From Arbacia lixula (Eukaryota > Echinodermata > Echinoidea > Arbacioida > Arbaciidae): 64,000 nt of DNA. Below are positions 1,074 through 55,070 of this stretch, piece by piece (position 1 is the first letter of the stretch; each line of letters starts with the position of its first letter). The stretch is taken from the NCBI GenBank assembly GCA_963669155.1, contig OZ022577.1:28521237-28585236 (forward strand). Direction: 5' to 3'. Position numbers and translations under genes: made by a program. Below the pieces are notes generated by a model, which made no database searches, was not told the DNA's origin, and was given only the letters and a program-made list of their open reading frames with translations.

Positions 1074-2562
1074 TACAATTCTTTTGCGTAGCAACGGAGA
1101 TCACGATATTTCTGGTTATTTTCGCAAGTGGGCGAGACACAATATCGCTAATGCCTTGTTTTTTTCAACGACATTTCACTCATACCCAGTTTGCCTCATT
1201 ATCTTTCAAATGTTTCTCCCGATCGTAATATGAAATTAAAAAAAAATCAGGCTGTGTGTGTGTTCTACAAGTTTTCAAAGACTCAATTGTCTTATTTTTC
1301 CTTAAATCCCATGAAATTATCGAGTATATATTAATTTTTGTTCATTAAAGACGTAGTGCTATTTCCCTAGCTGTCACTGGTGTGATGGTGTAAAGGGGTG
1401 AAAATGTCATTCCTTTCCTCAAATTTGTCAAACGGCAAAGACATTATCAATTAGTTAGATCTTACTTTAAGAAACTTGATTTAAAACTGTACCGGTACGG
1501 CATTGTACGCAGTGTACGACCGGTACGCCTCATGCGTAGAGCAACAACGTTGCGAATTGTTGAACTAGCGATTAGGAAATACTGCTGCATTAAGCTTCTT
1601 ACACTTTTAACAAAATGTAATATTTAGTATATAAATGTCAATTGCACGGTAACGTTCACCTTAAAGGATTCAGAGAGCAATTATAGTTCACATCCTGCTT
1701 CCTTTTCTCTTACTACGCTTAAATGACTTTGATGTTTGACTTTGTGCTGCTATAGATTTAAACATGGATAGACTATAATCATCCCTGTAATTATCTTTGA
1801 TTAAATACATTGCACATTAAAACCAGTTTTTAGAAAATGACGAGTGTTTTACCAGTGTTTAACAAACAAATCACACGATTGCCTTATTGTATAACCAAAA
1901 TTGCCTGAATTGCAAAATTTGCTTTAGTTAACAAACATGATAATGATTAACCTTGATTCTAGGCTTTAGGACATTTCTACTTCACAGCAATATTACAGAG
2001 TCTATAGTGCACTCTTTCATTCACACCTTTTCTCCCTCCAGCCGGAGAAGGCAGCGGTAATTATTAATCTACTGCAGCCAGACCCGTGTATGGCATATTG
2101 TAGTTTGGATTGGAAATTCCTAACAGCCTGGAAACCAAGCTAGGTAATTATGCACCAAAAAACGCCACGTATGTGCTCACGGCTCTAAACGACGCGTTGC
2201 GCCATGTTTTTTGCATAAAATACCTCTTTTCGCCGAGTGCGCGCAGTTAATTTCTCTCTTTAATTCCTTGAGAAAGCACCAAATCCTTTCGAGAAACTTG
2301 CTCCGTAGGAACAGCTTTGCTTCTTATGAATATGCATAAAACAAAGTTCATACCATACTCGTTCTAGTAATCTTAAGTTTAAACTTCATATCCATATTTT
2401 TTAATGTAAACTTTTGCTTTATAAAAAAGCTTAAAAATTACATATATGATTGTTCATATTTTAGGTTTGGCTAAAATTGTCATGGTAATTTGCTCAAAGT
2501 TTTTTTGAAGGTATAAATGATATCCTCTTGGAGAGCGAGGATAGGGGTCAATACCGTCAATG

Positions 2563-2945
2563 AAGTTTGAAGTTTGAAGTTTGAAGTTTATTTATTATTT
2601 CTGACGACCCCTTTCGAGGTATGAGAAATACACAGTAACTTGTACAATACAATTTATATATATAAATATATATATACACACACATATGTTTTCTTTAAGA
2701 AAAAGAAAAGAAAACAGTTTCGAAATACATGTACATGTAATAGTATTTGCAATATTTACAAGTATTCACAGAAGCAATGTATCGCAGTTTATAACACAGG
2801 CCTATAAAAAAGTTTGGATCAATTTATGTCTTAAATTTCGCCATTATGAGTTTAATGAACTTGGCAAGTTGTGATAATTTTAATTTTAATTTTAATTTTA
2901 ATTTTAATTTAATTTTAATTTTAATTTTAATTTTAATTTTTTTTA
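2563..2945 (+). mobile_element. U1-specific ~380-bp insertion with (TTTTAA)n tail
   Basis: The other units read continuously through GTCAATGCTAGGCCAACG, while U1 is interrupted between GTCAATG and AGGCCAACG. The insert begins with about four GAAGTTT repeats, passes through a TA/CA-rich stretch near 2655-2690, and ends in an AATTTT-repeat tail of about 65 bases. A low-complexity tail suggests a SINE-like or other non-LTR-mobilised element. No coding domain and no clear target-site duplication are visible. The 62-codon frame inside it is probably fortuitous. Confidence 0.7.
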
Positions 2946-3244
2946 GGCCAACGCTATGCGATTATGACGTATGTGTAACTAGGATGGGCGCTCATTGGCA
3001 ACCGTTTGGCGCATAAGCAGTAAGCATTAACACAAGTTCTCCATGACCGAATAAGATGAGAAAATTTATTTGACTTTTGTGAAAATACTTTACATCAAAG
3101 ATCTACCGCATATAATATCCAATACCATACTCTTAATATCTAAACTTGAAAAAACACATGTTTCTTTTTGTTTGTGTCCTATATCATGCCGGTAAATCGT
3201 TTCTTACCAAATTGGCTACTACTATTAAAGCGCCCATTGCATTA

Positions 3245-3252
3245 TGACGTCA
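3245..3252. promoter_or_regulatory. Palindromic CRE (TGACGTCA) upstream of copy 1
   Basis: A perfect cAMP-response-element palindrome lies 196 bases before the ATG. It is kept in all five units within a conserved stretch that also holds ATTGG (inverted CCAAT) words at about 2994 and 3211. CREs of this form bind CREB/ATF bZIP proteins in animals; its use here is inferred. Confidence 0.5.
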
Positions 3253-3440
3253 TACGCGCATAAGATATGTCGGTGCGCGTCAAGAGTGCAATGCATACAA
3301 AAGTAAACATAACGTGAAACGGGGTTATTAAAGGAAACATCCACCAAGCAGATCCCTTACAAAATACGAGCTGAGGATTTAAATTGCTTGTGATAATATT
3401 TGTTTCCAGCATTTCGTCTTACACAATCTCTTCCAAAACC

Positions 3441-5695
3441 ATGGGCCGCAATCGCTGGCAGATAATTAAGAGGCGCTTGCAAAAGAAACACAAGGTAACA
3501 TATCCGTTAATAAAATTGACATTTACTGAGGGTGAAATTCATTTTTTATAATCTCTGCTTTTATATATGGATGTATTGTGATGCATCGCATTATTGTGAA
3601 ATTATCAGCTATGGTTGTCAGTTGCTATCTCACGTGTGAATAAACATGCATTTATCTCCAGTATCGTGCTTTTACATGTACCAATTCTGTGCGCCGTGCG
3701 TATAATCATATATTTATATATATTTCTTCTTTTTGGTTAATTTGTCGATTCAGGACATCAACACAATATCTTTTTTTTTTGCGTTACTTTCTAGAATATT
3801 TTTTTTAATATGAAAGTACACCAATGTGAGCAAATTGTGTATTGTCTTAGATTTTTGAAAAAATGTTATGAAAACCTGTTTCTTGGAACATAATTTCTAA
3901 ATAATACTTCCATCATCATGTTTGTGATTTTCTTCTGCTGCTTGTATTTTTATCTAATACCTTACTTCCGCCTATTCTAATGTTGTTTAGATCGGGCCGC
4001 TGCCTGGGCAGAACCAGTTGGAAACCGCCCCTGTGTCACGAACACCAGCGCAACTTGACGCACTGTTTACTGCCAACACACTCCTCAAGCCCCTCACACC
4101 CGACATCGTCGAAGATAACACAGACGAGGATATCAAGAAGCAAGTCAAAGGGGATGGAGATCACACTGCAGCGACTCGAAGCCATTCACCTCCTTTGAAA
4201 GTTGGAGACATTGAAGATGGCGAGGAGATTGAGCATGTGTCAGGTATGTATAAGATACTTACACTGGATTCTATGTTCCAAGTTTCAGAGCCGATTGGAG
4301 TGAAAGATAGATGGATAGGTCGATGGGTGGACGACAGATAGATAAATACATACGTGGAGGAGAGAGGGGGGGGGGTTAGACATAAAGAAGTCTATCCTAT
4401 CAAAGCTTTTTAGGATAACAATGATCTGACAGAGGTAGGTAGGGACTGATAGAAGAACATACGTGTAGGGGGGGGGGGGGAAATGGAAATAGAAAGGGAG
4501 ATATGAATAAATATGATATCCATTCTCTGGGACGCACTTGTTCTTTGAATATTTACAGTGATCATCAAAAGTTACGTCTTAATTTTTTTGGGAGGTTTTC
4601 ATTATTTGTTGATGTGCCAAAGAACAACGTCTAAACAGGGTTTGAACATTAAAGCTCAAACATTATTTGCTGCTTCTTAGTATTCATATTCTTTGTTACA
4701 AGTCACAGTGTACTTCACATGCATCGTTTTATTTTGCCTGGAAAATAAATAACATTAAGAGATGAGTATCATTTTAGGTGTAAATATTGATATAGCTGCT
4801 TTATATTATGCTAGACATCCCGGGGACCTGCTCATACAACATTTACAATGGTTTCTCGCTGAAGAAGCCTCTTCAGGCCGCCCGCCTGCAAGCTAAAATG
4901 GAGACCGCCCGGGCACGAAGGCAGGTTAGTACATGTTCTGGCCAAATAGCGGAAACGCTCAGAGCTTTAATAGAAAACAAACCCACACATCATTTTATCG
5001 CCAATACGTAGATTGTGATATCCACTATTTCCCCCGCCTTGTCGATAGCTTTTTTTTTCTTAAATGGCAATACTTTTGTTGGCGTCTTGTAGACCTAGAA
5101 AATTATATTCTATTGATTTAATGGATATCATAGTGATTATAGTACGGCGCATTCTGCTTTGCCAAGAAGCAAACTGGCAGTCATGTGAACATGACTTCAT
5201 TTGACGGTTTACGTCTCGTTTGTGATGAACTTGTCAGTGCAGTGTTAATCCTATCTCCAAAACAATAAGTTGTCTAGTTTCTGTTGGTATATGCAATTTC
5301 TTCTCTGACGACCTGATAATGGAAAAATCTTAAAAGTTCTAATTTTGCTTGCAACTTCGCACCCAAGAGGATTATTTGAAGGGATCCATTGAATTAATTG
5401 TCAAGTATGCCTCTCCCCAACCCAACCATCATTCTTAATCTGCATTCCCTTTCTCCTATTTATTTTTCTTTTCCGTTTTCCTCCTCTTCTTTTCCTTTTT
5501 CTTCTTCTATTTTCCCCTTCCACCTCCCCCGTCTTTACACAATCTTCTCCTCTTCTTTTTCTCCACCGCCCCCCCTCTCTTTCACCCTTCTCTTCCCACT
5601 CGCAGCTGATCGAAACTCAGTTGAAGATCAAGCTCGCCGAGCGATTGGATACCAGTTACTTCCAACCGCCACCATTGCCAACAATAACAAGTTAA
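3441..5695 (+). CDS. Unrecognised 168-aa protein, tandem paralogue 1 (4 exons)
   Basis: Coding exons are 3441-3494, 3991-4243, 4815-4924 and 5606-5695, joined at GT-AG sites in phases 0, 1 and 0. The spliced frame is 168 codons plus TAA. The start has a strong context (AAACCATGG). Residues 1-18 are very basic (RNRWQ...KRRLQKKHK), like a nuclear-localisation or nucleic-acid-contacting segment. Residues 19-102 are hydrophilic, with an acidic patch (about 56-66) and an SPP phospho-site-like motif (84-86). Residues 118-153 form a charged, probably helical stretch (SLKKPLQAARLQ to KIKLAERL). The tail 157-168 is proline-rich (YFQPPPLPTITS). There is no signal peptide, membrane segment or catalytic motif, and I do not recognise the family. 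A pyrimidine tract of about 160 bases precedes exon 4. An AG after TTTGTTTCC just before the ATG could be an acceptor for an untranslated 5' exon. Copy-specific residues: His83, Gly90. Confidence 0.85.
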
Positions 5696-5925
5696 ACACC
5701 CGAAAGGCACTATTTAACAACCAATAATTACATCAGTGCAATTATTACTTTAAAATATATAACTACTCGCACAAGCATGCTAGGATTTCTAAAATCACTT
5801 ACAATTGAATTGTATGCGTAATTGAAACAATATTAGATTCGCACTGGGTGAAAGCCAAGAGGTATTTCAAATCTAACAAAATTGTAGCAAAAGCAAAAGC
5901 GTAGCAAAACATGTCATATATTTGC

Positions 5926-5931
5926 AATAAA
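5926..5931 (+). terminator. Candidate polyadenylation signal, copy 1
   Basis: AATAAA lies about 230 bases after the stop codon of copy 1. It is also present at the same place in copies 2-4. Confidence 0.45.
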
Positions 5932-6068
5932 CAATTCAACTGGGTCACTAGTTCATAGCGCTAGATTGCATACTAATTACCAAAAGCAGGATTTTGCAAA
6001 TTAGAAAACAAGTTAAGTCCGGATTTTAACCAACGTATGAATCAGTATGTGTTTTACAGTGGACAAGA

Positions 6069-6302
6069 TTAGCCGTCCATTGCACCTCTGTGCTTGCGCC
6101 CATCTGATCTTGCTTTGCAAAGGGGAAGATACAATTGCAACCCATAAATAACATTTCGGATGTGCAAACTGTACATCAAGGCAACAATTACCCCAACATA
6201 ATCTCTGAATGTAGTAAACAGCATCACGGTTGTGTACTGGAGTCTGCCAATGAAATGGCTCAAATCACTCAAATATAAACCAATCAAAATCAAGAGCGGC
6301 AA
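6069..6302 (-). other. Conserved 78-codon minus-strand open frame, U1
   Basis: This frame begins after CTCTAG on the minus strand, which is a plausible splice acceptor, and ends with ...RGAMDG and a stop. It has no ATG, so if coding it would be a terminal exon. The same 234-base interval is free of indels in all five units. On the plus strand, U1-U5 also share a shorter frame through the same bases, so indel-free conservation does not settle which strand, if either, is translated. Confidence 0.25.
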
Positions 6303-6673
6303 AGGCTAGAGTATAAAACGGCTTAGGCTTACTTGCACTTCAACTAAGTTCAGGTATAACTCATAACTCATAATTCATTGATCATAATATGGAAATAATT
6401 CCGCTCCGTCAACTATACATTTTTTTCTTATAGATATTCCTTTAAGTAACAGTTTTGGAAATCTTAAATCAATTTTTTGAAGTTGTGCTAAGACAGTTGC
6501 GAGCTGAAGCTAAATCTACACTTATTGTTCAAGTTTGATTAATTGTATCAATGCAGCAACAATCAATGCCACAATTGCAATATTGATTTAAAAGATATGT
6601 CCCAAAACAAATATAGGAAGAAACACTAAGGAAAGAATATGCACTGGTATTTATAATATAAAGGTTATGCAAG

Positions 6674-6708
6674 CCCCCCCCCCCCCAAAAAAAAAAAAAA
6701 AAAAAAAA
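6674..6708. repeat. polyC-polyA tract, U1
   Basis: A run of C is followed directly by a run of A. The same junction occurs in every unit with different run lengths, as expected from slippage. Confidence 0.9.
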
Positions 6709-7689
6709 CTTGACAAGCAACAAACAACGTAAATCGTCCATTGTGATCCTCTAAGTTTTTAATTCATTTGGATTCTTGATAGAATAATACTGTTTAAAAT
6801 GTGCACACTCTCCAAATCTAACTTTTGTCATATATGATATGATACGATAACGTTTGTAAAAACAATCGAACAATTGTGATTTTAGGTGAACAGCACAAAT
6901 AAAGCCATGTAAGTATTAATCTAACAAACGCACAAGTATGCAGCAACGTTAACAGCTGGTGACGAAAGTTACAAAGCTAATTATGCCACACTCCTACTGC
7001 TATGACAACACGTGATCATACTCCTGCTACATGTACTACTGCTATGAGTACTTCTACTTCATTACTGCAATTACAACCACGAACTATAAGAACAACAGCG
7101 ATAGGAATGATATATATGCAATTAACGATGCCACTACCCGTACCGCATGGGTAAGCCATAGGTATGCACAAAGTAAATAAACCAAAATAAACTATTATAA
7201 TAAACCCAAGTATGATAAGGCGAAAAAAAAACACCCAAAATTATATAAACAATATGAAAGACAAAATCAAAATTCCATCCCCCTAACAAAATGGAAAATT
7301 GAACCAAAATGAAAATATGTCGAGCAAAAATTGAATGGTATAAAATGAAGGAAAAATAGTTTCTTTTGAAAGAATTGATATACAACGTCGGTAGGGAAAG
7401 TCGGAAATTGTGACCTCAAATATTGGCATGGAAGTTAAGTAATACTTTATCTTAATCTTAAGTCGACTATATAATATTTAAATAGTGCTGATAAAAGTCA
7501 ATAGGCCTCTGCCTGAAAACGAAAGATCGCATCAAACAGATAAATTGACTAAACTTAAAGTAATATAAACAATTGTAACGAAAACTGCTACAGCAATGTA
7601 ATGAGCAACATCAACATAAATCAACCAAAGAAACTAAAACAAACAGTATCCTCTGCAACAACAGCCGCTAAACAGCGACGACAGACAGC

Positions 7690-8725
7690 TGTTGTATTAC
7701 AGTAGCAACACAATGTTGCTTCAACGGCAGCCGCAGGAACAGTGACAATAGAAGTCATCCCGTTACACAAAAATAAATCAACCATAAACAGTGCTCATGT
7801 GTTTGTCGCTTTTAGTCTCAAACTACTGCTTTTTTGCTTCACAAATACGTTTCATAACCATTCTTCGTTGAAATTGGACATTGTTCATCCCTCCACATAT
7901 TTTGTTGCTGCTACTCCAGCAGCCGACGTTGCAGCAACATTTATTGCTTCTATTCATGCATCGGCGGTTGCAGCAAGCTATGTAGCAATAGCATTAGTAG
8001 ACGTATCAAGAAATGAAATACAACCAACAATATCGACAACCGCTGAGAGAACAGCGACAACATACAGCTGATGTAGTACAGTAGCAACACACAATTTCTG
8101 CAACAGCTGCTACATGTAGGGGAGCAACAACATTTTTGCTGCAACGGCGGCTGCAGAAACAGCAACAACCTAAGTCGCTACAACGAACACTGCTTGTACA
8201 GGAGCAACATAATGTTGCTACATCGGTGGCTGCATGTACAGTAGCAACTGAAGTTGTTCTAACAATCATTGCATAGGTATTAGCAAAAAAATGTTGCTGC
8301 ACCAAGCGCTTCATGAGATTTGTTAACAAGATATTTCTTCAACGGCGGCTGCGGAAATAGCAGCAACTCAAGTAGCTACAACAGCCACTGCTTGTACAGT
8401 AGCAACACAATGTTGTTACAACGGTGGCTGCTTGTACAGTAGCAACTTAAGTTGCTGAATAGCTGCTGCTCGTACAGTAGCAACACAATGTTGCTGTAAC
8501 GGCGGCTGTAGGAATAACAGCACACTATGCCGTTGAAACAACCGTTCCATGAAAGAAGCATCAAAAGTTGCTGCAACAGTCGCAACATAAGTTGTTGCAA
8601 TACCCGTTGCCGCAATGGCGGCTGCAGGTACAGTCGCAACATAAGTTGCTCCAACACCCATTGTATGAACAGTACCAATAGATGTTGCTGTAACGTCGGC
8701 TGCTGGAATAGCAGCAACAAAATTC
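7690..8725. repeat. Hairpin-rich degenerate minisatellite, U1
   Basis: Degenerate units of roughly 40 bases combine GGCGGCTGC with GTAGCAAC and GTTGCTAC, the last two being exact inverted repeats around a 5-base loop (for example at 8399-8419). The overlapping Cys- or Ala/Thr/Val-rich open frames on both strands follow from the repeat and are not called as genes. About 150 bases near 7750-7900 are non-repetitive. Confidence 0.85.
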
Positions 8726-11700
8726 TGTAAATGGGTGAATGGATGGGTAATCTCCACGAAGAATGGATATGGAACTAACTTGTAAAGCAAGAAGCAGTAG
8801 TTAGAAGCTAAAACCAACTAAAACGTAAAAATGATTATTTATGGTTGATTTATGTTGGTGTAACATTAATTTCTTACATAAGAGTCAATAGTTAAATAAG
8901 TAAATACGGAACACATAGCAGCACTATCTAATCGTCTCAATATGTGCATATAAAATGGAATTGACTATTCAAGCAAAAAGCAACAGTGATATAACTAACC
9001 AGCCCAATTGCATAGAAACTATATTAATTTATGTTGTCTTCAAACATGTAAAATGTTTAACAACAAAGACGTAAGATATCAAAATCACACCCCTGAAATA
9101 ACAAATAAAATTGAAAAACTAGCCAACCCCTCAAAAAATCTAGCGCACAAATTGATAGTTCATCCCATCACCTTCACCAACGTTGATTATTTGCTTAATA
9201 CTACATATTAATTGTTTCACAAGATCAGAACAACACGTTATGGTGGTTGTAGTAGTAATGTAGTAGAAGTACTCTGAGCAGTAATACATGTAGTAGGATA
9301 TAGACAGAACAACAGCAGTAACTCACTCTGTACATGTTGTCATCAGGCCAGCCCAATTATGATAATCATTACGATTATTATTTCCTAACTACCATACAGC
9401 AATATGGTAAGCCCTGCAATAGCAAGTTGAATTCTAACATACAACTGTTAAAGAAACATATCAAGGAAAGGCAAGAACTGCCAGTGCATAATCTTTCATT
9501 CAAATTGTATTACACTGTTGAAGTATTCAACAAAAGCACACGTTGAAGGAAGTAATGCAATTACAAATACTAAAATGTTAACAACCAAAATTAAGCTACT
9601 GTGAATGGACAAATTCATGAATTATCAAGCATGCTGGTTTCGCAACTTTAGCAACGAATACGCTTTACCTTTTGATCAATTACATCAAACTTGAGTTAAA
9701 ACATCTGAACCTAAAATAGAAGATTAAGAATGAGTAAATTTTGGCATATATAGGGGTGCATACTAAGTGCTGCTCACTTGCAAAATACAATATTCGCAAA
9801 TAACTATATGGAACTGGAATATATCTACATCTCATAGACATAGGAGCACCGCACATTTTTTTTTCACAGATCGACTTCAATACTCCATGCGCTTCCGTGA
9901 TGCTTGCATACAACACATATCACTTTATCCCCTCGATATTAGATCAAAACGGAACCCGACTCTTCTTGTCCACTGTAAGACACATACTGATTCTACAGCA
10001 CAAACAAAAACAACCACCAATGCCGCACCACCACTGTGTGGGCAACTGCAATACTCTAAGGATAGTGACTGATAGGGTTTAACTACTGATTAAGATTCAG
10101 AATTAAAGGCTGCAGTATTATTGATGACAAATCTGAATCGAGAGAGAATGTGCAACCACTCATCGAAGCGCTATTGAAATATATGGAATATGAACTAATC
10201 ATATGCTACGCTATCATATTTTTTGCGATGCCTAATGCCGCAATAGTTGACTGAAATAATAAAATTGTATTCCTTAAAACCTGTATCCCGATGTGGTTTT
10301 ATAAGTCAAATGTAAACATTGGTTTGATAATGAAGATTTGGGTACAGTCGTGTGGTGTGCAATATTGACATCCAGAAAGTGTGTGGTACGTGGGAATGTG
10401 TCATCATGAACAGGTATTTACACAGACTGCGCGCAATGGAATTGTGGCGGTATTCTGGAGTATGTTTTATTATCATTAATCAACAATGAACGTTACAGGA
10501 TGCTGAATGCTTTGTTAGTGTTGTTACGTAACATATGCTCGCAAAATGTACATATTTCACATGAACATTCTATTCTTATTATAGATATGAAGAACTACAC
10601 TATATTCCCCATAAACCACGTAGTTTTATTTCATAGAAGGTAAACTGATAAGTGTCAGTATTATCTATAATTGCCCACTTATCACGAGTTCCAGTGTTCT
10701 GTGGATCATGCAGAATTAATTAATTTTACTGTATTAATCTTAGCACTCGCACTCTGCACCAAGACCATGAAAAACAATGCAAGACATTCCATTACTTTCA
10801 TTAATTGATTTATTTTATACATTTTAGTCAAGCTTTTACAAAAAAATTAATATAGTACTGAATAATTAACAGAATTTGATTGGTTATATAGAAATAGATC
10901 GAAGTATACACAGATAATTCAAAAAGATAAAAGTAAAAAAAAATGTATTTCTTAAATTGGACAACTGCCTCTTTATCGTCCTAATTTGGTAATACATCTG
11001 ATTGAGTCTGCATACAGTATAAGACATACAGTCACGAAACCCTGTCAAAATGAGGCATTCATATAAGAAATAATTTGTCTGAAATTGCAATTAGAATCTG
11101 TCTTGCTTTTGCAGAAACTATACAGGACTTACAATTTGGTTAGCATAATACATGTACATCAAATATTTGAGTGTCAAAGCGGACGGAAACAAAATAATGG
11201 TAATACAGGCAAAATCTACACCATTGTAGAGATTATAGACCAATAACCCTCCTCCCCGTTCAAGAGCGTAAAGCTATGAGAATAGTTTCTCAAATAATTA
11301 TGCCATTAATACTGACGTTTTTATCTACAGTTCTCACACAGTGTGTATGTTAGTCCTTCTAGTCACATTTTTGGCTTTAGCACATTAACGTATCTTCAGG
11401 TAATGTTGGAATGGACGGATGTAAAGTTGACACATGAATCTCAAGGTGATATCTTTCATGGCACAATTTACTTAGGACCTTACACGTCCTGTAGTATGAC
11501 CATTAACTCCACTTTTTTTTAAAGAATCACATAGATCCCACAAGAACTACATTTATGAGCACTTCTCCAACTGTCAAATGATAATAGCTGGACATGAATG
11601 ATGAAACAATACCATGGACACTATTTTTTTGTTCAACGACATTTCACTCATACCCAGTTTGCCTCATTATCTTTCAAATGTTTCTCCCGATCGTAATATG

Positions 11701-13357
11701 AAATTAAAAAAAAAAAATCAGGCTGTGTGTGTGTTCTCCGCTAGACCAAGTTTTCAAAAACTCAATTGTCTTATTTTTCCTTAAATCCCATGAAATTATC
11801 GAGTATATATTAATTTTTGTTCATTAAAGACGTAGTGCTATTACCCTAGCTGTCACTGGTGTGATGGTGTAAAGGGGTGAAAATGTCATTCCTTTCCTCA
11901 AATTTGTCAAACGGCAAAGACATTATCAATTAAGTTAGATCTTACTTTAAGAAACTTGATTTAAAACTGTACTGGTACAGCAGTGTACGCAGTGTACGAC
12001 CGGTGTACGCCTTATGCGTAGAGCAACAACGTTGCGAATTTTTGAACTAGCGATTAGGAAATATTGCTGCATTAAGCTTCTTACACTTTTAACAAAATGT
12101 AATATTTAGTATATACATGTCAATTGCAGAGTAACGTTCACCTTAAAGGATTCAGAGAGCAATTATAGTTCACATCCTGCTTCCTTTTTTCTTACTACGC
12201 TTAAATGACTTTGATGTTTGACTTTGTGCTGCTATAGATCTAAACATGGATAGACTATAATCACCCCAGTAATTATCGTTGATTAAATACATTGCACATT
12301 AAAACCAGTTTTTAGAAAATGACGAGTGTTTTACCAGAGTTTAACAAACAAATCACACGATTGCCTTCTTGTACAACCAAAATTACCTAAATTGCAAAAT
12401 TTGCCTTATTAAACAAACATGCTAATGATTAACCTTGCTTCTTGGCTTTAGGACATTTCTACTTCAAAGCAATATTACAGAGTCTATAGTACATTCTTTC
12501 ATTCACACCTTTTCTCCGTCCAGCCGGAGAAGGCATCGATAATTATTAATGTACTGCAGCCAGACCCGTGTCTGGCATATTGCAGTTTGGATTGGAAATT
12601 CCCAACAGCCTGGAAACCAAGTTAGGTAATTATGCACCAAAAAATCGCGTTCAGCCAAGGCCACGTATGTGCTCACGGCTCTAAACGACGCGTTGCGCCA
12701 TGTTTGTGCCTAAAATACCTCTTTTCGCTGGGTGCGCGCAGTTAATTTCTCTCTTTAATTCCTTGAGAAAGCACCAAATCCTTTCGAGAAACTTGCTCCG
12801 TAGGAACAGCTTTGCTTCTTATGAATATGCATAAAACAAAGTTCATACCATACTCGTTCTAGTAATCTTAATTTTAAACTTCAAATCTAAATTTTTAATG
12901 TAAACTTTTGCTTTATAAAAAAGCTTAAAATTACAAATATGATTGTTCATATTTTAGGTTTGGCTAAAATTGTCATGGTAATTTGCTCAAAGTTTTTTTG
13001 AAGGTATAAATGATATCCTCTTGGAGAGCGAGGATAGGGGTCAATACCGTCAATGCTAGGCCAACGCTATGCGATTATGACGTATGTGTAACTAGGATGG
13101 GCGCTCATTGGCAACCGTTTGGCGCATAAGCAGTAAGCATTAACACAAGTTCTCCATGACCGAATAAGATGAGAAAATTTATTTGACTTTTGTGAAAATA
13201 CTTTACATCAAAGATCTACTGCATATAATATCCAATACCATACTCTTAATATCTAAACTTGAAAAAACACATGTTTCTTTTTGTTTGTGTCCTATATCAT
13301 GCCAGTAAATCGTTTCTTACCAAATTGGCTACTACTATTAAAGCGCCCATTGCATTA

Positions 13358-13365
13358 TGACGTCA
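13358..13365. promoter_or_regulatory. CRE palindrome upstream of copy 2
   Basis: TGACGTCA lies 192 bases before the copy 2 ATG, within the same conserved flank as in copy 1. Confidence 0.5.
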
Positions 13366-13549
13366 TACGCGCATAAGGTATGTCGGTGCGCGTCAAGAGT
13401 GCAATGCATACAAAAGTAAACATAACGTGAAACGGGGTTATTAAAGGAAACATCCACAAAGCAGATCCCTTACAAAATACGAACTGAGGATTTAAATTGT
13501 GATAATATTTGTTTCCAGCATTTCGTCTCACACAATATCTTCCAAAACC

Positions 13550-15814: not shown

Positions 15815-16039
15815 ACACCCGAAAGGCACTTATTAAACAACCAATGATTACATCAGTGCAATTGTTACTTTAAAATATATAACTACTCGCACAAGCATGC
15901 TAGGATTTCTAAAATCACTGACGATTGAATTGTTTGCGTAATTGAAACAATATTAGATTCGCACTGGGTGAAAGCCAAGAGGTATTTCAAATCTAACAAA
16001 ATTGTAGCAAAAGCGTAGCAAAACATGTCATATATTTGC

Positions 16040-40867: not shown

Positions 40868-41336
40868 CTAGTCAACCCTCTCCATCCACTCTTTAACTGC
40901 ACGGCTGCCAAAAAGAGACTCAAATCAAGACGCAGTTTCCTCCACTCGACTGAATCCCTTGATGGCTCCACGGACAGTGAAAGGATCATCCTATGGTCCA
41001 ACCACCTCCAGTCTGTGACGCGCCAGGTCTCCATCGGTCCTAGTGAAACATCCCCAGGTTCAAGTCAGGAATGGCCAACCTGACAATGTCTCAATCGCCT
41101 GTGGTCTGGCATAGAACGGTGTAAAGTCCTTATGCAGAAATGGGGGTACAACAGGGATGGAGACACAACCTGTGACTGTGGGAAGGACCAGACGATGCAA
41201 CACCTTTTGGTATGCCCTCTCCTACCAGAGCCTTGCACCACCAACGATCTGGAGTCGCTCAACCCCAAAGCCAGATCGTGTATCGTCCACTGGACAGGAC
41301 TTGTGTAGTGACCCGAGAAGAAGAAGAAGAAGAAAA
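40868..41336 (+). mobile_element. Non-LTR retrotransposon (LINE) 3' fragment in U4
   Basis: This is the orthologous copy of the U3 insert, 469 bp long, with the same AGTCACAT duplication (40860-40867 and 41337-41344), the same in-frame TGA and a shorter GAA tail. Its last codons read HWTGLV and stop, closer to usual LINE C-termini than the HWSGLV of U3. Confidence 0.85.
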
Positions 41337-43305: not shown

Positions 43306-43313
43306 TGACGTCA
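43306..43313. promoter_or_regulatory. CRE palindrome upstream of copy 5
   Basis: TGACGTCA lies 196 bases before the copy 5 ATG. Confidence 0.5.
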
Positions 43314-43501
43314 TACGCGCATAAGGTATGTCGGTGCGCGTCAAGAGTGCAATGCATACAAAAGTAAACATAACGTGAAACGGGGTTATTGAAGGAAACA
43401 TCCACAAAGCAAATTCCTTACAAAATACAACCTGAGGATTTAAATTGCTTGTGATAATATTCGTTTCCAGCATTTCGTCTTACACAGTCTCTTCCAAAAC
43501 C

Positions 43502-46500
43502 ATGGGCCGCAATCGCTGGCAGAGAATCAAGAGGCGCTTGCAAAAGAAACACAAGGTAACATATCCGTTACTAATATTGACATTTACTGAGGGTGAAATT
43601 CATTTTTAATAATCTCTCCTTTTATATATGGATGTATTGTGATGCATCGCATTATTGTGAAATTATCAGCTATGGCTGTCAGTTGCTATCTCACGTGTGA
43701 ATAAACATACATGTATCTCCAGTATCGTGCTTTCACATGTGGTAACAATTTGATGCGCTGTGCGTTTAATTATATATTTATATATTTTTCTTCTTTTTGG
43801 TTAAATTGTCGATTCGGGACATCAAGTCAATAGCATTTTTTTTTTGCGTTACTTTCTAGAATACTTTTGAATATGAAAGTACACCAATGCGAGAACATTG
43901 TGTATTGTATAGATTTTTGGAAAAACTGTTATGAAATCGTGTTTCTTGGAACATAATTTCTAAATAGTACCTCCATCATCATGTTTGTGATTTTCTTCTG
44001 CTGCTTGTATTTCTATCTAAAACCTTACTTCCGCCTATTCTAATGTTGTTTAGATCGGGCCGCTGCCTGGGCAGAACCAGTTGGAAACCGTCCCTGTGTC
44101 ACGAACACCAGCGCAACTCGACGCACTGTTTACTGCCAACACACTCCTTAAGCCCCTCAAACCCGATATCGTCGAAGATACTACAGACGAGGATATCAAG
44201 AAGCAGGTCAAAGGGGATGGAGATCACACTGCAGCGACTCAAAGCCCTTCACCTCCTTTGAAAGTTGAAGACATTGAAGATGGCGAGGAGATTGAGCATG
44301 TGTCAGGTATGCATAAGATACTTACACTGGATTCTATGTTCCAAGTTTCAGAGCTGATTGGAGTGAAAGATAGATGGATAGGTCGATGGGTGGACGACAG
44401 AGAGAGGGGGTTAGACATAAAGAAGCCTATCCTATCAAAGCTTTCTGGGACAACAATGATCTGACAGAGGTAGGTAGGGACTGATAGAAGAACATAGGTG
44501 TATGAGAGAGCAGTGGAGATAGAAAGGGAGATATGAATGAATACGAGACATACTTGTGGACAAGTATCAGGTGGTCTGCATTGGCAAATTCATGCACAGA
44601 CATGGGCTGGAAAATGCACGGTGAACTATAGACCTTCATTCGTGACACCAACTATCCATAAGCAATGTGAGACAGCGCTCAAGAAAGCTCATAGGGCACC
44701 TATTATACTAAAATTTCAGAGAATTTCCTAAATGGTAACATGTTTATGCTAACGTGATTAATAGTCATGTAAGAGAATGGGGCGAGAGAAAAAAGAATTG
44801 GAAAGAAAATCTCAAAGAGAATGACAAAGTGAGGCATAGAACAGAAGAAGATGGCAAAATAAACATTGCAAAAGGAATGCAAAAGTTGACCCTACCCACG
44901 CCAGGAATCGAACCGGGGGCCTCGAGATCTTAAAACGGCGCCTTACCTATTGAGCCACAAATCTTCCCATTCACTTAACACGTAATGCCCAGCAGGGGCT
45001 AGAATGATTAAGAAATCGATATTCAAGCTGAAATTTCACCATGATCCCGACATCTGATTAAAAAATGGAGACAACGTTCCGGAAAGCTCGTAGACTCAGC
45101 TACAACATACTGAAATTTCAGAGTGAAAGCTTGACATATTAGTGAGATACATCTCCTAGAAGCTCGTCATGTCATTTCATAAATACCACTTCCATTGACA
45201 TAACACGGAAGTGCGATTTTGACATTCATGCGTATAATGAAATTTACACCGTGAAGACGTCATCAAAATGAAAAATGAAGGCAACTTCTACTATGGAGCG
45301 AGGTCTCAGCTACAACATACTGAAATTTGGGAGAAAATTGACCATGAATTACTGAGATACACAAAAGCGGGTAAAAAAGTTCATGACGTCATACATGAAA
45401 AATCATTTTTTCGATTCATATGGCAATATGATGACATCAACATAAATTTAAAAGGTAAATCGAACATTAAATCACATTTACATTTCCCACTTTTTCAGAA
45501 TATTGAAAAAAAATTGGGGGTCACCGGCCATTCTGAAGAGCTATGGCCGATTGAAGGTAGTCATGTTTTTTGCAATATTTGCACACAAAAACGTATTGAC
45601 GCACGCGCAGACTTTGAACTTTGACGCACCCGCACGACCTTGTTATTGCATGGAAATGGCTCAAAATGACAGGATGTGTTGTATGTAGTGTCAGTAACAT
45701 GAATCTAGTAAAAAAACGGAATTTTGACGTTTTTTTCGCGTTACGCACGGAAAAACGCGCGAACGCGCGCGCACGCGCGGAAATTTTTGAAATGCTAGAA
45801 ATTACCTAAAACATATGCAAAACAATTTTGAGTTGATTCTGAGCATTTTTAAATTTTGCGCGCGCGTTTTTGCACTAACGTACGCGTACGCGCGCGTTTT
45901 AATTTATTGAAATTAATTGTATTATCATTAAATTTATGCAAGTCAATTTTCATTAGCTATAAATGATTGGTTCTAGAGCTAGATGAGGTAATAGGTTTTT
46001 ATTAAACTGCTCGTAGATGACGTCACGATGACGTCATGACCTTGAAAATGTTGCTGGAACATGTTCACGTACATATTCATACATGATGAAGATTTCATGA
46101 AAAATGACTAATGCATTGTTGAGATATCCATGCCACAAAATTTTGGAATAAAAATAAATAAATAAATAATAAACGAGACATACTTGTGGACAAGTATAAG
46201 GTGGTCTGCATTGGCAAATTCATGCACTGGCATGTGCTGGTAAATGAACGTTCTTAAAACATCGCCTTACCCATTGAGCCACAAATCTTCGCATTCACTT
46301 TTCACGTAATGCCCGCTAGCAGTGGCTAGAACGATTTAGAAATCGATATTCAAACTGAAATTTTGCCATGATCCCGATATCTAATGAAAAATGGAGACCA
46401 CGTAGCTGAAAGCTAGTAGATTTAGCTACAACATACTTCATTTTCAGAGTGAAAGATCGTATCATACGAAAAGATATAGCTCCTGAAAGATGTCATTTCA

Positions 46501-48741
46501 TGATTTCAAATAAATGACCCTCCCGTTGACATTACACGTGAAAACGTCTGATTCTGACTTTAATACCGATAATCATATTTTTACCTTGAAGACGTTAATG
46601 AATTGAACAGTTAGGGCAAGCCTGCCACAGAGCAATGTCCTAGGCACGACATACTGAAATTTGGGAGAAAATTGACAAAGGATTACTGAGATATGCAAAA
46701 GCGAGTAAAAAAGTTCATGACGTCATAATTGAAAATTCATTTTTTCGATTCATATGGTAATATGATAACGTCACCATGTACTTACTGGTCAAATGATACA
46801 TGAAATGATATTTACGTTTCATACTCTTTCAGAATATTAAAAAAAAATTGGGGGTCACCGGCCATTCTGAGGAGCTATGGCCGATTGAAGACACTCATGT
46901 TTTTTGCAATATTTGCACACAAAAACGTATTGACGCACGCGCAGACTTTGAACTTTGACGTACCCGCACGACCTTGTTATTGCATGGAAATTGCTCAAAA
47001 TTGCAGGATGTGTTGTTTGTAGTATCAGAGACATGAAACCATTAAAAAAAGTGAATTTTGAGGCTGCGTACGCGTAACGCACGAAAAAAACGCGCGAACG
47101 CGCGCGCACGCGCGGAAATTTTTCAAGTGCTAGAAATGGCCTGAAACATATGCAAACCAATTTTGAGTGGATTTGGAGCATTTTAAAATTTTGCGCGCGC
47201 GTTTTTGCACTAACGTACGCGTACACGCGCGTTTTTATGTATTGAAATTAATTGTATTATTATTAAATTTATGCATATCAATTTTCATGAGCTATAGATT
47301 ATTGGTTCTAGAGCTACATGAGGTAATAGGTTTTCATTAAACTGCTCGTAGATGACGTCATGATGACGTCATGACCTTGAAAAAGTCACAATGACAAGTT
47401 CACATGTATACCTATACATGGTCAAAATATGGTGTAACATGACATACGCATTGTTGAGATATAGATGACACAAAAACATGGGGTGCAAAAAATAAAAATA
47501 AAGAAAGAAAATTCGGGCGAAATTAAAAGGTGATCTGTCGGTGCACGACAGACCACCTAATAAAGAAAGAAAATTCTAACGAAATTAAGAGGTGATCTGT
47601 CGTTGGCGACAGACCACCTAATGATATCCATTCTCTGGGACGTACTTGTTCTTTGAATATTTACAGTGATCATCAAAAGTTACGTCTTGATCTTTTTTGA
47701 GTTTTCATTATTTGTGGATGTGCTGCTTCTTAGTATTCATATACTTTGTAACAAGTCACAGTGTACTTCAAATGCATCGTTTTATTTTGTCTGGAAAATA
47801 AACAACATTAAGAGATGAGTATCATTTTAGGTGTAAATATTAATAAAACTGCTTTATATTATGCTAGACATCCCGGGGACCTGCTCGTACACCATTTACA
47901 ATGGTTTCTCGCTGAAGAAGCCTCTTCAGGCCGCCCGCCTGCAGGCTAAAATGGAGACCGCCCGGGCACGAAGGCAGGTTAGTATAAGTTCTGGCCAATA
48001 TTTAGCGGAAACGCTCAGAGCTTTTATAGAAAATAAACCCACATATCATTTTATCGCCAATACGTACATTGTGATATCCACTATTTCCCCTGCCTTGTCG
48101 ATAGCATTTCTCTTTTCTTAAATGGCAATACTTTTGTTGGCGTCTTGTAGACCTAAAACATTATATTCTATTGATTTAATGGATATCATAGTACGGCGCA
48201 TTCTCCTTTGCCAAGAAGCAAACTGGCAGTCATGTGAACATGACTTTATTTGACGGTTTACGTCTCGTTTGTAACTTGTCAGTGCAGTCTTAATCTTATC
48301 TCCAAAACAATAAATTGTCTACATTCTGTTGGTATATGCAATTACTTCTCTGATGACCTGATAATGGAAAAATCTTAAAAGTTCTAATTTAACTTGTAAC
48401 TTCGCACCCAAGAGGATTACTTAAAGGGGTCCATTGAATTAATTTTCAAGTATGCCTCTCCCTTATCCAGCCATCATTTTTAATCTGCATTCCCTTTCTC
48501 CTATTTCTTTTTCTTTTCCGTTTCCCTCCTCTTCTTTACCTCTTTCTTCTTCCATTTTCCCCTTCCACCTCCCCCGTCTTTTCACAATCTCCTCCTCCTC
48601 TTCTCCTCCCCCCCCCCCCCCCCTCTTCCACCCTTCTCTTCCCACTCGCAGCTGATCGAAACTCAATTGAAGATCAAGCTTGCCGAGCGACTGGATTCCA
48701 GTTACTTCCAACCGCCACCATTGCCAACAATAACAAGTTAA
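43502..48741 (+). CDS. Unrecognised 168-aa protein, tandem paralogue 5 (4 exons)
   Basis: Exons are 43502-43555, 44054-44306, 47868-47977 and 48652-48741. Intron 2 is 3561 bases because of an insertion; elsewhere it is 546-579 bases. All splice sites are GT-AG (the exon 2 donor is GTATGC rather than GTATGT) and the frame is intact. Differences from copy 1 are Arg8 (the only change in exon 1 among all copies), Val31, Lys54, Thr61, Gln81, Pro83, Glu90, Thr111 and Ser155. The downstream AATAAA seen in the other copies reads AATGAA here (48965-48970), so the 3' end may be formed differently. Confidence 0.83.
44892..44964 (-). other. Degenerate tRNA-like sequence inside the insertion
   Basis: On the minus strand an A-box match (TGGCTCAATAGG, 44946-44957) and a perfect B-box (GGTTCGATTCC, 44904-44914) are spaced as in a tRNA, and the whole is about 73 bases. 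The acceptor and anticodon stems pair poorly, so this is a tRNA-derived, SINE-type promoter relic and not a functional tRNA. Copy B keeps only the A-box half (about 46250-46290). Confidence 0.55.
45745..45900. other. CpG-rich alternating purine-pyrimidine block, copy A
   Basis: Two CGCG-rich stretches (about 45757-45780 and 45857-45897) surround an AT-rich centre, in DNA otherwise poor in CpG. The alternating CG/CA pattern and its inverted arrangement could adopt Z-DNA or a hairpin. Confidence 0.5.
47080..47235. other. CpG-rich alternating purine-pyrimidine block, copy B
   Basis: This is homologous to the block in copy A at the same relative position. It retains both CGCG-rich arms with a few substitutions. 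Confidence 0.5.
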
Positions 48742-49124
48742 ACACCCAGAAGGCATTCATTTAACAACCAATAATTACATCAGTGCAATTATTACTTTAA
48801 AATATATAACTACTCGCACACGCATGCTAGGATTTCTAAAATCACTTACGATTGAAATAATTGAAATAATATTAGATTCGCACTGGGTGAAATCCAAGAG
48901 GTATTCAAAATCTAACAAACTTGTAGCAAAAGCAAAAGCGTAGCAAAACATGTCATATATTTGCAATGAACAATTCAACTGGGTCACTAGTTCGTAGCGC
49001 TAGATTGCATACTGATTGCCAAAAGCAGGATTTTGCAAATTAATAATCCAATGTGATTAGAAAACAAGTTAAGTCCGGATTTTAATTAACATATGAATCA
49101 GTATGTGTTTTACAGTGGACAAGA

Positions 49125-49358
49125 TTAGCCGTCCATTGCACCTCTGTGCTTGCGCCCATCTGATCTTCCGTTGCAAAGGGGAAGATACAATCGCAACTCA
49201 TCAATAACATTTCGGATGTGCCAACTGTAGATCAAGGCAACAATGACCCCATCATAATCTCTGAATGTGGTAAACAGCATCACGGTAGTGTACTGGAGTC
49301 TGCCAATGAAATGGCTCAAATCAAACAAATATAAACCCATCAAAATCAAGAGCGGCAA
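49125..49358 (-). other. Conserved minus-strand open frame, U5
   Basis: This is the fifth copy of the 234-base frame, again without indels and with the same ending. It has Ile-Tyr-Ser where the others have Met-Tyr-Ser. Confidence 0.25.
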
Positions 49359-49762
49359 ATGCTAGAGTGTAAAACGGCTTAGGCCTACTTGCACTTCAAC
49401 TAAGTTCAGGTATAACTCATAACTCATAGATCATAATATGGAAATAATTCCACTCCGTCAACTATACAAATATGCATGCAACAAAAAATAATATGATTAC
49501 TGAGAAATATCTTCTTTTTTTTTATAGATATTCCTGTCAGTAACAGTTTCGGAAATCTAAAATCACTTTCTCAAGTTGTACTAAGACAGTTGGAATCTGA
49601 AGCTAAATCTACACTTATTGTTTAAGTTTGATTAATCGTTTCAATGCAGCAACAAGCATTGCCACAATACTGATTTCAAAGAAGCGTATGTTGCAAAACA
49701 AATGTAGGAAGAAACACTAAGAAAAGAATATGCACTGGTATTTAAAAGGTTGCGCATGACCG

Positions 49763-49785
49763 CCCCCCCCCCCCCCCAAAAAAAA
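49763..49785. repeat. polyC-polyA tract, U5
   Basis: Fifteen C are followed by eight A, the shortest A-run in the series. Confidence 0.9.
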
Positions 49786-50779
49786 GAAACATTTATATTG
49801 CAAGTTTCAGAAACTAAGTTTCAGAAACTATAACTAGACAAACTTGACAAGCAACAAACACCGTAAATCATCTATTGTGATCTTGTCAGTTCTTAATTCA
49901 TTCGGATTCTTGATAGAAGGGACCCTGCAATACTGTTTAAAATGTACACACTCTCCAAATCTAAATAAATTTTCATGTATATGACATGATATAATACGGT
50001 AACGTTTGTAAAAACAATCAAACAATTGTGATTTTAGGTCAAAAGCACTATTAATGGAGGCATGTTAGTATCAATCCAACAAATGCACAAGTATACAGCA
50101 ACGTTAACAGTTGGTGACAAAAGTTATAAAGGTAATTATACCACACTCCTACTGCTATGACAACACGTGTACATACTCCTGCTACATGAACTACAGCTAG
50201 GAGTACTTCTACTTCATTACTGCAATTACAACTACGAACTATAAGAACAACAGCAATAGGAATGATATATATACAATAAACGATGCTACTGCCGTACCGC
50301 ATGGGTAAGCCATAGGTATGCACAAAGTAAATAAACCAAATAAACTATTATATAAAACCCAAGTATGATAAGGCGAAAAAACACCCAAGATTATAAAAAC
50401 AATATGAACAACAAAATCAAAATTCCATCCCCCTAACAAAATGGTAAAATTAACCCAAAATGAAAATATGTCGAGCAAAAATTAAATGTTATGAAATGAG
50501 GGAAAATAGTGTCTTTTGAAAGAAATGATATACAACGTCGGTAGGGAAATTCGGAAATCGTAACCTTAAAGATTGGCATGGAAGTTAAGTAATACTTAAT
50601 CTTAAGTCGACTATATGATATTTAAATAGTGCTGATAAAAGTCAATAGGCCTATGCCTGAAAGCGAAAGATCGCATCGAACAGATAAATTAACTAAACCT
50701 TAAGTAATATAAACAATTGTAACAAAAACTGCTACAGCAATGTAATGAACAACATCAACATAAATCAACAAACCAAAAC

Positions 50780-51890
50780 AAACAGTATCCTCTGCAACAA
50801 CAGCCGCTAAAAGAACAGCGACGACAGGCAGCTGTTGCATTACAGTAGCAACACAATGTTGCTGTAACGGCTGCCGCAGGAACAGTGACAATAGAAGTAA
50901 TCCTGTTACACAAAAACAAAGCAACCATAAACAGTGCTCATGTTTTTCGCTGTTTTTGTTTTTTGTACATCGCTTTTAGTCTCAAACTACTGCTTTTTTT
51001 GCTTCAGAAATACGTTTCATAACCATTCTTCGTTGAAATTGTACATTGTTCATCCCTCCACATATTTTGTTGCTGCTACTCCAGCAGCCGACGTTGCAGC
51101 AACATTTATTGCTTCTATTCATGCATCGGCGGTTGCAGCAAGCTATGTAGCAATAGCATCAGCAGCATCAGTAGACGTATCAAGAAATAAAATACAACCA
51201 ACAATATCGACAACCGCTGAGAGAACAGCGACAACATACAGCTGATGTAGTACAGTAGCAACACACAATTGCTGCAACAGCTGCTACTTGTAGGAGAGCA
51301 ACAACATTTTTGCAGAAACAGCAACAACTTAAGTCGCTACAACGGCCACTGCTTGTACAGTAGCAACATAATGTTGCTACAACGGTGGCTGCATGTACAG
51401 TAGTAACTGAAGTTGTTGTAAGAATCATTGCATAGGTATTAGCAAAAAATGTTGCTGCAACAAGTGCTTCGGGAGATTGTCAACAAGATATTTCTTCAAC
51501 GGCGGCTGCAGAAATAGCCGCAACTAAAGTAGCTACAACAGCCACTGCTTGTACAGTAGCAACACAATGTTGCTACAACGGTGGCTGCTTGTACAGTAGC
51601 ATCTTAAGTTGCTGAATAGCTGCTGCTCGTACAGTAGCAACACAATGTTGCTACAACGGCGGCTGTAGGAATAACAGCACACTATGCCGTTGAAACAACC
51701 GTTCCATGAAAGAAGCATCAAAAGTTGCTGCAACAGTCGCAACATAAGTTGTTGCAACACCCGTTGTATGAACAGTAGCTTTAATTGTTGCCGCAATGGC
51801 GGTCGCAACATAAGTTGCTCCAACACCCATTGTATGAACAGTACCAATAAATGTTGCTGTAACTGGAATAGCAGCAACACAATTCTGTAA
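50780..51890. repeat. Hairpin-rich degenerate minisatellite, U5
   Basis: This is homologous to the other arrays, with small internal deletions near 51310 and 51860. Both strands carry long open frames generated by the repeat, as in the other units. Confidence 0.85.
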
Positions 51891-54800
51891 ATGGATGAAT
51901 GGATGGGTAATCTCCACGAAGAATGGATATAGAACTAAGCAAAAAGCAGTAGTTAGAAGCTAAAAGCAACTAAAACGTGAAAATAATTATTTATGTTTGA
52001 TTTATTTTTGGTGTAACGACATCAACTTCTTACGTAAGAGGCAATAGTTAAATAAATGACCAACACATAGCAGCACTATTTAATCGTTTTAATATGTGCA
52101 TATACAATGAAATTGAGTATTCAAGCAAGAAGCAACAGTGAAATAACTAACCAACCCAATTGCATATAAACTACATTAATTCATGTCGTCTTCAAACATG
52201 TAAAATGTTTAACAACAAAGATGTAAGACGTCACAATCACACCCCTGAAATAGCAAATAAAATGGAAAAACTAGCCAACCCCTCAAAAAATCTAGCACAC
52301 AAATTGATAAAGTATTGAAAGAGGAAAAAGAATGGATTAAATAATGGGCAATGCATGCAAAGCTGTTCTTATGATCGGGCGTGGCAACATGAGACAGATT
52401 TTTTTTAATGTTTGTTTTATATCATGTAAAAAACGGACATTTTACTAGTAGTTAAAATAAAAAATATCAATATTCTAAACATTTAAACAAATTAAACGCC
52501 CACACAAAATAAATCATGAATGGAATTTTGGATATTAAAAAATAAAGTGAAAAAGTAAGAATTTAGCATAAACAATTTAAAGCAGTACGCGATAAAGAAG
52601 TCGACATAATCGTATCAACAAGACCAATAGGAAATTAAGAATAATTTGCAATACTACATATTAATCGTTTTACAAGATCAGAACAACACTTTATGGTGGT
52701 AGTAGTAATGTAGTAGAAGTACTCTGATCAGCAATACATGTAGTAGGATAAAGACAGAACAACAGCAGTAACTCACTCTGTACATGTTGTCATCAGGCCA
52801 GCCCAATTATGATAATCATTACGATTATTATTTCCTAACTTCCATACATCAATATGGTAAGCCCTGCAATAGCAAGTTGAATTCTAACATACAATTGTTA
52901 AAGAAACATATCAAGGAAAGGCAAGAACTACCAGTGCACAATCTTTCCAAAATTAAGCTACTGTGAATGGACAAATTATCAAGCATGCTGGTTTCACAAC
53001 TTTAGCAACAAATACGCTTTAACTTTTGATCAATTACATTAAACTTGAGTTGAAACATCTGAACCTAAAATAGAAAACTAAGAATGAGTCAATTTTTGGC
53101 ACATACTTTGTGCTGCTCACTTGCAAAATACAATATTTGCAAATAATTATATATTGGAATTCCATATATTCCAGATACTGGAATATATCTACATGTCATA
53201 GACATAGGATCACCGCATATTTTTTTTTTCACAGATGGACTTCAATACTCCACGCGCTTCCGTGATGCTTGCTGTTAACAGCATACAACACATATCACTT
53301 TATCCCCTCGATATTCGATCTCAAGATCAAAACGGGACCCGACTCTTCTTGTCCACTGTAAGACACATACTGATTCTACAGCACAAACCAAAACAACCAC
53401 CAATGCCGCACCACCACTGTGTAGGCAACTGCAATACTCTAAGGATAGTTACTGATAGGGTTTACCTACTGATTATGATTCAGAATGAAAGGCTGCAGTA
53501 TTATTGATGACAAATCTGAATCGAGAGAGAATGTGCAACCACTCATCGAAGCGCTATTGAAATATATGAAATATGAACTAATCATATGCTGCGCTATCAT
53601 ATTTTTTTGCGATGCCTAATGCCGCAATAGTTGACTGAAATAATAAAATTGTATTCCTTAAAACCTGTCTCCCGATGTGGTTTTATAAGTTAAATGTAAA
53701 CATTGGTTTGATAATGAAGTTTTGGGTACAGTCGTGTGGTGTGCAATATTGACATCCAGAAAGTGTGCGGTACGTGGGAATGTGTCATCATGAACAGGTA
53801 TTTACACAGACTGCGCGCAATGGAATTTTGGCGGTATTCTGGAGTACGTTGTATTATCATTAACCAACAATGAACGTGTCAGGATGCTGAATGCTTTGTT
53901 AGTGTTGTTACGTAACATATGCTCGCAAAATGTACATATTTCACATGAACACTCTATTCTTATTATAGATATGAAGAACTGCACTATATTCCCCATAAAC
54001 CACATAGTTTTATTTCATAGGAGGTAAACTGATTAGTGTCAGTATTGTCTATAATTGCCCATTTTAATATCACGACTTCCAGTGTTCTGTGGATCATGCA
54101 TAATTAATTTTTACTGTGTTAATATTAGCACTCTCTCTCTGCACCAAGAACTCGAAAAACACTGCAAGACATTCAATTAATTTGATTAATTTCTTTATTT
54201 TATATATTGTAGTCAAGCTTTTATAAAAAAAAAAATACAGTACTGAATAGTTTACTTACAGAATTTGATTGATGATATAGAAATAGATAGAAGTATACAC
54301 AAATAATTCAAAAAGATAAAAGTAAAAAATTATTTCTTGAATTGGACAACTGATTCTTTATCGTTCTAATTTGGTAATACATCTGATTGAGTCTGCATAC
54401 TGTACTAGACATACAGTCACGAAACCCTGTCAAAGTGAGGCATTCATATAAGAAATAATTTTTCTGAAATTGCAATTAGAATCTGTCTTGCTTTTGCAGA
54501 AACTATACAGGACTTACAATTTGGTTAGCATAATACATGTACATCAAATATTTTAGTGTCAAAGCGGACGGAAACAAAATAATGGCAATACAGGCAAAAT
54601 CAACACCATTGTAGAGATTGTAGACCAATAACCCTCCTCCCCGTTCAAGAGCGTGAAGCTATGGGAATAGTTTCTCAAATAATTATGCCATTAATACTGA
54701 CGTTTTAATCTACAGTTCTCACATAGTGTGTATGTTGGTCCATCTAGTCACATTTTGGCTTTGTGAGAACCACAGCACATTAATGTATCTTCAGGTAATG

Positions 54801-55070
54801 TTGGAATGGACGGATGTAAAGTTGACACATCAATCTCAAGGTGATATCTTGCATGGCATAATTTACTTAGGACCTTACACGTCATGTAGTATGAACATTA
54901 ACTCCACTGTTTTGAAAGAAAACACATAGATCCTACAAGAACTACATTCATGAGCACTTCTCCAACTTTCCATGAATAATAGCTGGGCATGAATGATGAA
55001 ACAATACCACGGAAACTAATTTTTCAACAAAAATGTATCTAAGATCTTTTGAAATGTCAGTATCACACCC

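Follow-up and report, generated by a model that had tools for sequence, protein, structure and literature searches.

Introduction

Sdic is reported to be a tandem gene family that is specific to the species Drosophila melanogaster and plays a part in sperm competition (PMC7475035). Another report deals with genes co-amplified on the Drosophila X and Y chromosomes and likens them to mouse Slx/Sly (PMC6690552). The locus considered here is a tandem array of a gene with four coding exons in the sea urchin Arbacia lixula. It lies in a stretch of 64,000 nucleotides, referred to as the window hereafter (contig C2, positions 28521237–28585236, in a genome of 607 Mb and 590 contigs). Like Sdic, it is a tandem array of similar copies in one lineage; however, the A. 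lixula family is spread over five contigs in addition, and the likeness is drawn without claiming a sequence relationship. With the co-amplified Drosophila genes it shares the amplification of one gene at several chromosomal places. This parallel is a lead only.

We consider it likely that the window holds part of a tandem branch with nine copies, and that this branch belongs to a multigene family of about 20 copies that is under selection. As to its kind, the family is an ordinary one, formed by tandem and segmental duplication and probably also by exchange between copies. What is unusual is that it has no relative in anything searched.

The tandem array and its gene copies

Comparison of the window with itself by BLAST (self-BLAST) gave five head-to-tail units of 9.3–13.4 kb each, which span positions 1159 to ~55024, in agreement with the preliminary description of a five-copy, ~10-kb tandem amplification. 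The matches of at least 300 bp between units are 86–95% identical, and the five units differ from one another by 4.6–7.1%. The units are the following:

1159–11625, + strand: array unit 1 (self-BLAST, junction alignment)
11626–20959, + strand: array unit 2 (self-BLAST; tail lost in a deletion across the border with unit 3)
~20960–31040, + strand: array unit 3 (self-BLAST; head lost in the same deletion)
31041–41601, + strand: array unit 4 (self-BLAST, junction alignment)
~41602–55024, + strand: array unit 5 (self-BLAST, junction alignment)

One deletion at the border between units 2 and 3 (u2 and u3) took the tail of the former and the head of the latter. In the mosaic and exon/intron counts given below, unit 5 was cut ~36 bases early, which leaves the gene unaffected.

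Each unit carries one intact gene with four coding exons, as had been read from the sequence before: the ATG, every GT/AG splice site and the TAA are present in 5/5 units. All five spliced frames comprise 168 codons and the stop (507 nt each), and the ATG is accompanied by A at −3 and G at +4 throughout. The copies are located as follows:

3441–5695, + strand: gene copy u1, exons 3441–3494, 3991–4243, 4815–4924, 5606–5695 (TAA included)
13550–15814, + strand: gene copy u2, exons 13550–13603, 14099–14351, 14931–15040, 15725–15814
22197–24441, + strand: gene copy u3, exons 22197–22250, 22754–23006, 23553–23662, 24352–24441
32978–35210, + strand: gene copy u4, exons 32978–33031, 33528–33780, 34330–34439, 35121–35210
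43502–48741, + strand: gene copy u5, exons 43502–43555, 44054–44306, 47868–47977, 48652–48741, with a 3-kb insertion in intron 2

The insertion in unit 5, which had been noticed earlier, appears as 3,078 alignment columns. It (44500–47700) holds two 1.2-kb direct repeats that are 84% alike; in the array copy C2a_n1, this intron also carries a long insertion, but not the same one.

Copies across the genome

Searches with the unit DNA and with the protein located 20 places carrying exons 2 and 3, on five chromosome-sized contigs. Nine of them are the same-strand copies of the array, four of which lie to the left of the window. On the contig of the array, one inverted copy, which has diverged, lies at 28.473 Mb and two further copies lie at 26.75 Mb; the rest are found on C10 (two), C8 (two), C9 (three) and C7 (one). 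Thus, the copy number of five given in the preliminary description holds for the window, but not for the array or for the genome, and the array itself forms a single branch of a family with dispersed copies. At C2:17.4687 Mb, exon 4 has a weak match (expect value, E, 0.6) beside a unit-tail match, which may indicate a decayed twenty-first copy. A match on C3 (33%, E 0.7, three stops) was taken as chance.

The frame is intact in 16 of the 20 copies, including 9/9 same-strand array copies and 10/10 copies in the cluster around the window. The intact copies outside the window encode 161–185 residues, as compared with 168 in the window. Of the remaining four copies, two contain frameshifts, namely C10_1 and C10_2 (the latter only towards its end). 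In C8_1, exon 2 contains a stop and the final stop is changed; in C8_2, exon 4 and the last part of exon 3 are missing. These four broken copies, all of which lie outside the window cluster, show that copies do get lost. Four separate exons bordered by GT/AG were found in 19/20 copies, C8_2 being incomplete; because the introns are retained, processed retrocopies were rejected as an origin of the copies.

Selection on the coding exons

Within the window array, the mean difference between copies is 3.8% in the exons, 5.9% in the introns and 5.8% in the rest of the unit. A contrast was seen in the distribution of gaps: the gene span carries 30 gap intervals for 1,607 five-way intron columns, but the 507 exonic columns are free of them. 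The intron rate would predict 9.5 gaps in these exonic columns, and the rate found outside the gene would predict 13.6. Here gap intervals were counted as events, and many of them lie in simple runs; when the simple-run gaps were left out, 3.8 exonic gaps were expected from the introns (in an earlier alignment with slightly larger expectations). For substitutions, 42 exon changes were seen as compared with 69.5 expected from the noncoding mutation spectrum. Of these, 23 are nonsynonymous (46.5 expected, P about 1e-4) and 19 synonymous (19.6 expected; synonymous share, P = 0.014). Stops were absent where 3.3 were expected, which is weak on its own. The pooled pairwise ratio of nonsynonymous to synonymous rates (dN/dS) of the five window copies, which the preliminary description had named as a measure of selection, is 0.32 and bears out the constraint on the protein. 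It is 0.31 within the nine array copies and 0.33–0.46 between the clades of intact copies.

The comparison between contigs gives the strongest support for the gene. The mean identity of seven distant copies to u1 (over 2946–9156, with gaps counted as differences and with two of the seven copies broken) is 0.93, 0.84, 0.94 and 0.90 for exons 1–4, respectively. The introns reach 0.71, the upstream 495 bp reach 0.79, and the downstream part reaches 0.68. Intron substitutions alone amount to about 20–24% between contigs. The per-exon dN/dS values of the nine array copies against C9, C2b, the inverted copy and C7, in that order, are as follows:

exon 1: 1.45, 0.22, 0.09, 1.94 (very few changes)
exon 2: 0.49, 0.42, 0.46, 0.36
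exon 3: 0.19, 0.15, 0.42, 0.15
exon 4: 0.49, 0.67, 0.22, 0.53

Exon 3 also shows a clear third-position excess (0.085 against 0.014 and 0.025), and the length of exon 2 varies by multiples of three among the intact copies. On this basis, the exon-3 segment is the best constrained part of the protein and the acidic linker a loose one.

Several observations weigh against selection on the protein. Four of the 20 copies are broken. The dN/dS of exon 1 exceeds 1 in two of the four comparisons, on very few synonymous changes, that of exon 4 reaches 0.67, and that of exon 3 is 0.42 against the inverted copy. Exons 1, 2 and 4 have no clear third-position excess, and exon 4 varies most at first positions. 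In exon 2, only 7 of 13 pairwise gaps are in frame (DNA alignment of the seven distant copies, two of them broken). As to single copies, the dN/dS is 0.78 within C9, on few changes, and 0.91 for the C2b pair, on four changes, which does not suit strong selection on every one of them. Finally, the changes private to one array copy (15 nonsynonymous to 10 synonymous, P = 0.18) are not significantly constrained, whereas those common to several array copies are (17 to 18, P = 0.006). The earlier suggestion that selection has kept the frames intact is therefore supported for the pooled exons, in which nonsynonymous changes are half of the expected number, but not for every single copy. A relaxed state of copy u4, considered for its 8 nonsynonymous singletons among the five copies, was dropped when only 3 of them remained private after the other copies had been added.

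Taken together, the lack of exonic indels, the low dN/dS and the higher identity of the exons than of the introns argue for a real gene, whose coding exons, exon 3 most clearly, are judged from the sequence to be under moderate purifying selection.

History of the copies

Segments of ~8–10 kb, comprising the gene and its flanks, are present on several contigs and have been multiplied in place. Between contigs, the homology extends beyond the gene and takes in most of the unit. The left and right ends of the segment shared with u1 vary between arrays in the BLAST comparison, and among the 14 longest matches per pair, the stretches common to C9 and C8 (77–91%) and to C10 and the 26.7-Mb copies (84–92%) pass the limits of the homology to u1. 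In a tree of 19 coding sequences (C8_2 was left out), C9 and C8_1 form one group, and C10 and the 26.7-Mb pair form another, both with 100% ultrafast bootstrap support; 8 of the 16 inner branches are open, including the fork that would hold the array.

At 214 sites of the window array, two copies are opposed to three; all ten pairs are supported, and the dominant pair shifts along the unit. An exon-4 variant, SQYIQPPPLPPITS, is found in u4 and the leftmost array copy, and also in both 26.7-Mb copies and in C10_1. On a simple reading, the copies look as if they had been mixed by conversion or unequal exchange. The 9-bp sequence TTTTTCAAC is present at both the left and the right outer edges of the array. 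The first tandem step may thus have been the joining of such short repeats; unequal crossing-over would then have given rise to the nine copies, and conversion would mix them.

Borders of the gene and the downstream module

Beyond the coding exons, a conserved region was found upstream of the gene in an alignment of 11 copies:

1937–2143, + strand: conserved block, read as a putative promoter with a putative non-coding first exon; its donor GT is at 2144 and the acceptor AG directly precedes 3410

The block (1937–2155) was matched in 5/6 regions, the exception being C7. It ends in AGCTAG|GT in 10 of the 11 aligned copies, the inverted copy having GG, and TTTCCAG|C sits 31–35 bases before the ATG in 19/20 copies, C9_3 having CCAAC. 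These two signals are the reason for proposing that a non-coding first exon is probably present upstream, together with a putative promoter. Upstream in-frame stops precede the ATG in all 20 copies. A protein start further upstream is argued against by a 4-base length difference directly before the ATG in the C2b and C10 copies. On the 3′ side, AATAAA occurs 229–235 bases past the stop in 8/9 array copies (u5 is without it), and it was absent from that position in the 10 distant copies examined.

A further element of the unit lies 3′ of the gene:

7467–8905, strand not assigned: 1.4-kb module of unit 1, with inverted arms (7761–7983 and 8641–8864) flanking a 39/78-bp minisatellite

The arms are ~225 bp long and about 75% alike. 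A match to the module was found 3′ of the gene in 20/20 copies, and parts of it are more conserved than the introns. A coding function was rejected and the module is read as non-coding, because no consistent codon phase was seen and the gaps in frame number 1/22 in arm 1 and 11/26 in arm 2. It was also rejected as a dispersed repeat: among the 22 best candidates scored, C2:16.633 Mb is the sole place outside the gene clusters. We regard it as a speculative and improbable idea that a gene family not described before is being amplified jointly with this module, and that the module may make a hairpin RNA that tunes the gene dosage; in the amplicon, gene and hairpin would then form a pair that regulates itself.

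The encoded protein

The protein had been left unplaced in the preliminary description, and it stays so: no Pfam family was found in any of the seven members scanned among the 20 copies, and the protein of a single copy gave no match among the PDB sequences. No relative was found in two scans of viral contigs and one scan of prokaryote genomes. Literature searches, among them one for the peptide MGRNRW, found nothing, nor did passages of PMC10394057.

The composition of the protein changes along its length: the part encoded by exon 1 is strongly basic (+7.6), residues 53–103 are acidic (−10), and residues 119–154 are charged and likely helical, followed by PPPLP. By inspection, the N-terminus does not look like a signal peptide. 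We take LKVED to resemble the SUMO consensus and PPLP to resemble a WW ligand. As a weak guess from the composition, which we would sooner doubt than accept, the protein could be a nuclear or cytoskeletal scaffold. The basic N-terminus would bind a charged surface, the acidic linker would be a disordered, modifiable spacer, and the C-terminal helix with its PPLP tail would pair with itself or with a partner.

Alternative explanations

The 10-kb unit might instead be a mobile element or a composite transposon, with the gene as its cargo or its own protein. The presence of most of the unit on five contigs and the constant company of the module are in keeping with this idea. However, the varying limits of the segment shared with u1 mean that the ends are not constant, the C9/C8 and C10/26.7-Mb segments extend past them, the module was found, among the best candidates scored, at one place only outside the gene clusters, and the gene's protein, the only one of the unit that was scanned, has no Pfam match; we therefore hold a mobile element to be quite unlikely. 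Alternatively, the gene could be a passenger in drifting, satellite-like DNA, its frames being intact owing to the youth of the array and to conversion. The private changes, which cannot be distinguished from neutral ones, the mosaic pattern, the four broken copies and the lack of third-position excess in exons 1, 2 and 4 would all suit a passenger. Nevertheless, we judge this unlikely, since the noncoding divergence of ~6% and the ~30 intron gap intervals are accompanied by no gap in the exons, and since the exon peaks and the exon-3 constraint are seen between contigs whose introns differ greatly. An assembly artefact, in which haplotypes or reads were wrongly placed in tandem, could be suspected from the similarity of the copies and the use of a single assembly. 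Given that the nine copies have differing indels and insertions, that the window units differ to the extent described above and that related copies exist on other contigs, it is extremely unlikely.

As to the origin of the gene, descent from CFAP96 (PF15239), a microtubule inner protein of cilia, was considered, since a profile of exons 3–4 found CFAP96 best among the PDB sequences (E = 0.024 and 0.033). The resemblance is weak and extends over ~60 residues; the full profile gives E 0.4, and the two PDB matches are homologous to each other. Moreover, A. lixula has a CFAP96 of its own, on C18, and the resemblance did not recur with it. By eye, this protein has retained some few matched residues towards the end (L, Y and PLP) but is without most of those matched in the first half, and among the peptides of at least 30 residues from its locus, none scored above 6.2 bits with the same profile (exons tested apart). 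With no Pfam match either, the resemblance was taken as chance, and descent from CFAP96 is very unlikely. The reading preferred here thus remains that of a selected multigene family, of which the array is one tandem branch.

Other features of the window

To the right of the young array lies one more piece of the unit:

55289–56312, + strand: diverged, older unit-tail remnant

A 157-bp satellite lies between units of the array, and it was found close to the C8 cluster as well (window 131–1069; C2:28504199–28505193; C8:20150862–20151993). By eye, positions 6000–6130 and ~9930–10070 are alike around a TTGTCCACTGTAA-like sequence, perhaps a short repeat; the region 6006–6125 is highly conserved, with an identity of 0.88–0.91 between contigs. 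An open frame at 58125–59021 has an F-box match and leucine-rich-repeat-like sequence and is probably an exon of an F-box gene. The search for RNA genes in the window gave no Rfam match at the gathering score and no tRNA. Outside the window, the mitochondrial COI (on contig C590) makes sense by eye when AAA is read as Asn, AGA as Ser, ATA as Ile and TGA as Trp, which is the code of echinoderms and flatworms.

Implications for the gene family

We infer that the gene family may be restricted to this lineage. It is an unplaced family, evidently selected, that has changed its copy number, and selection for dosage is possible as the force behind the amplification. If its expression proved to be restricted to the germline, a part in reproductive or meiotic conflict could be considered for the family. 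Its 20 copies, which differ in age and lie on five contigs, offer a good natural series for how new multigene families arise, and for the question of whether it is copy number or protein variation that is selected.

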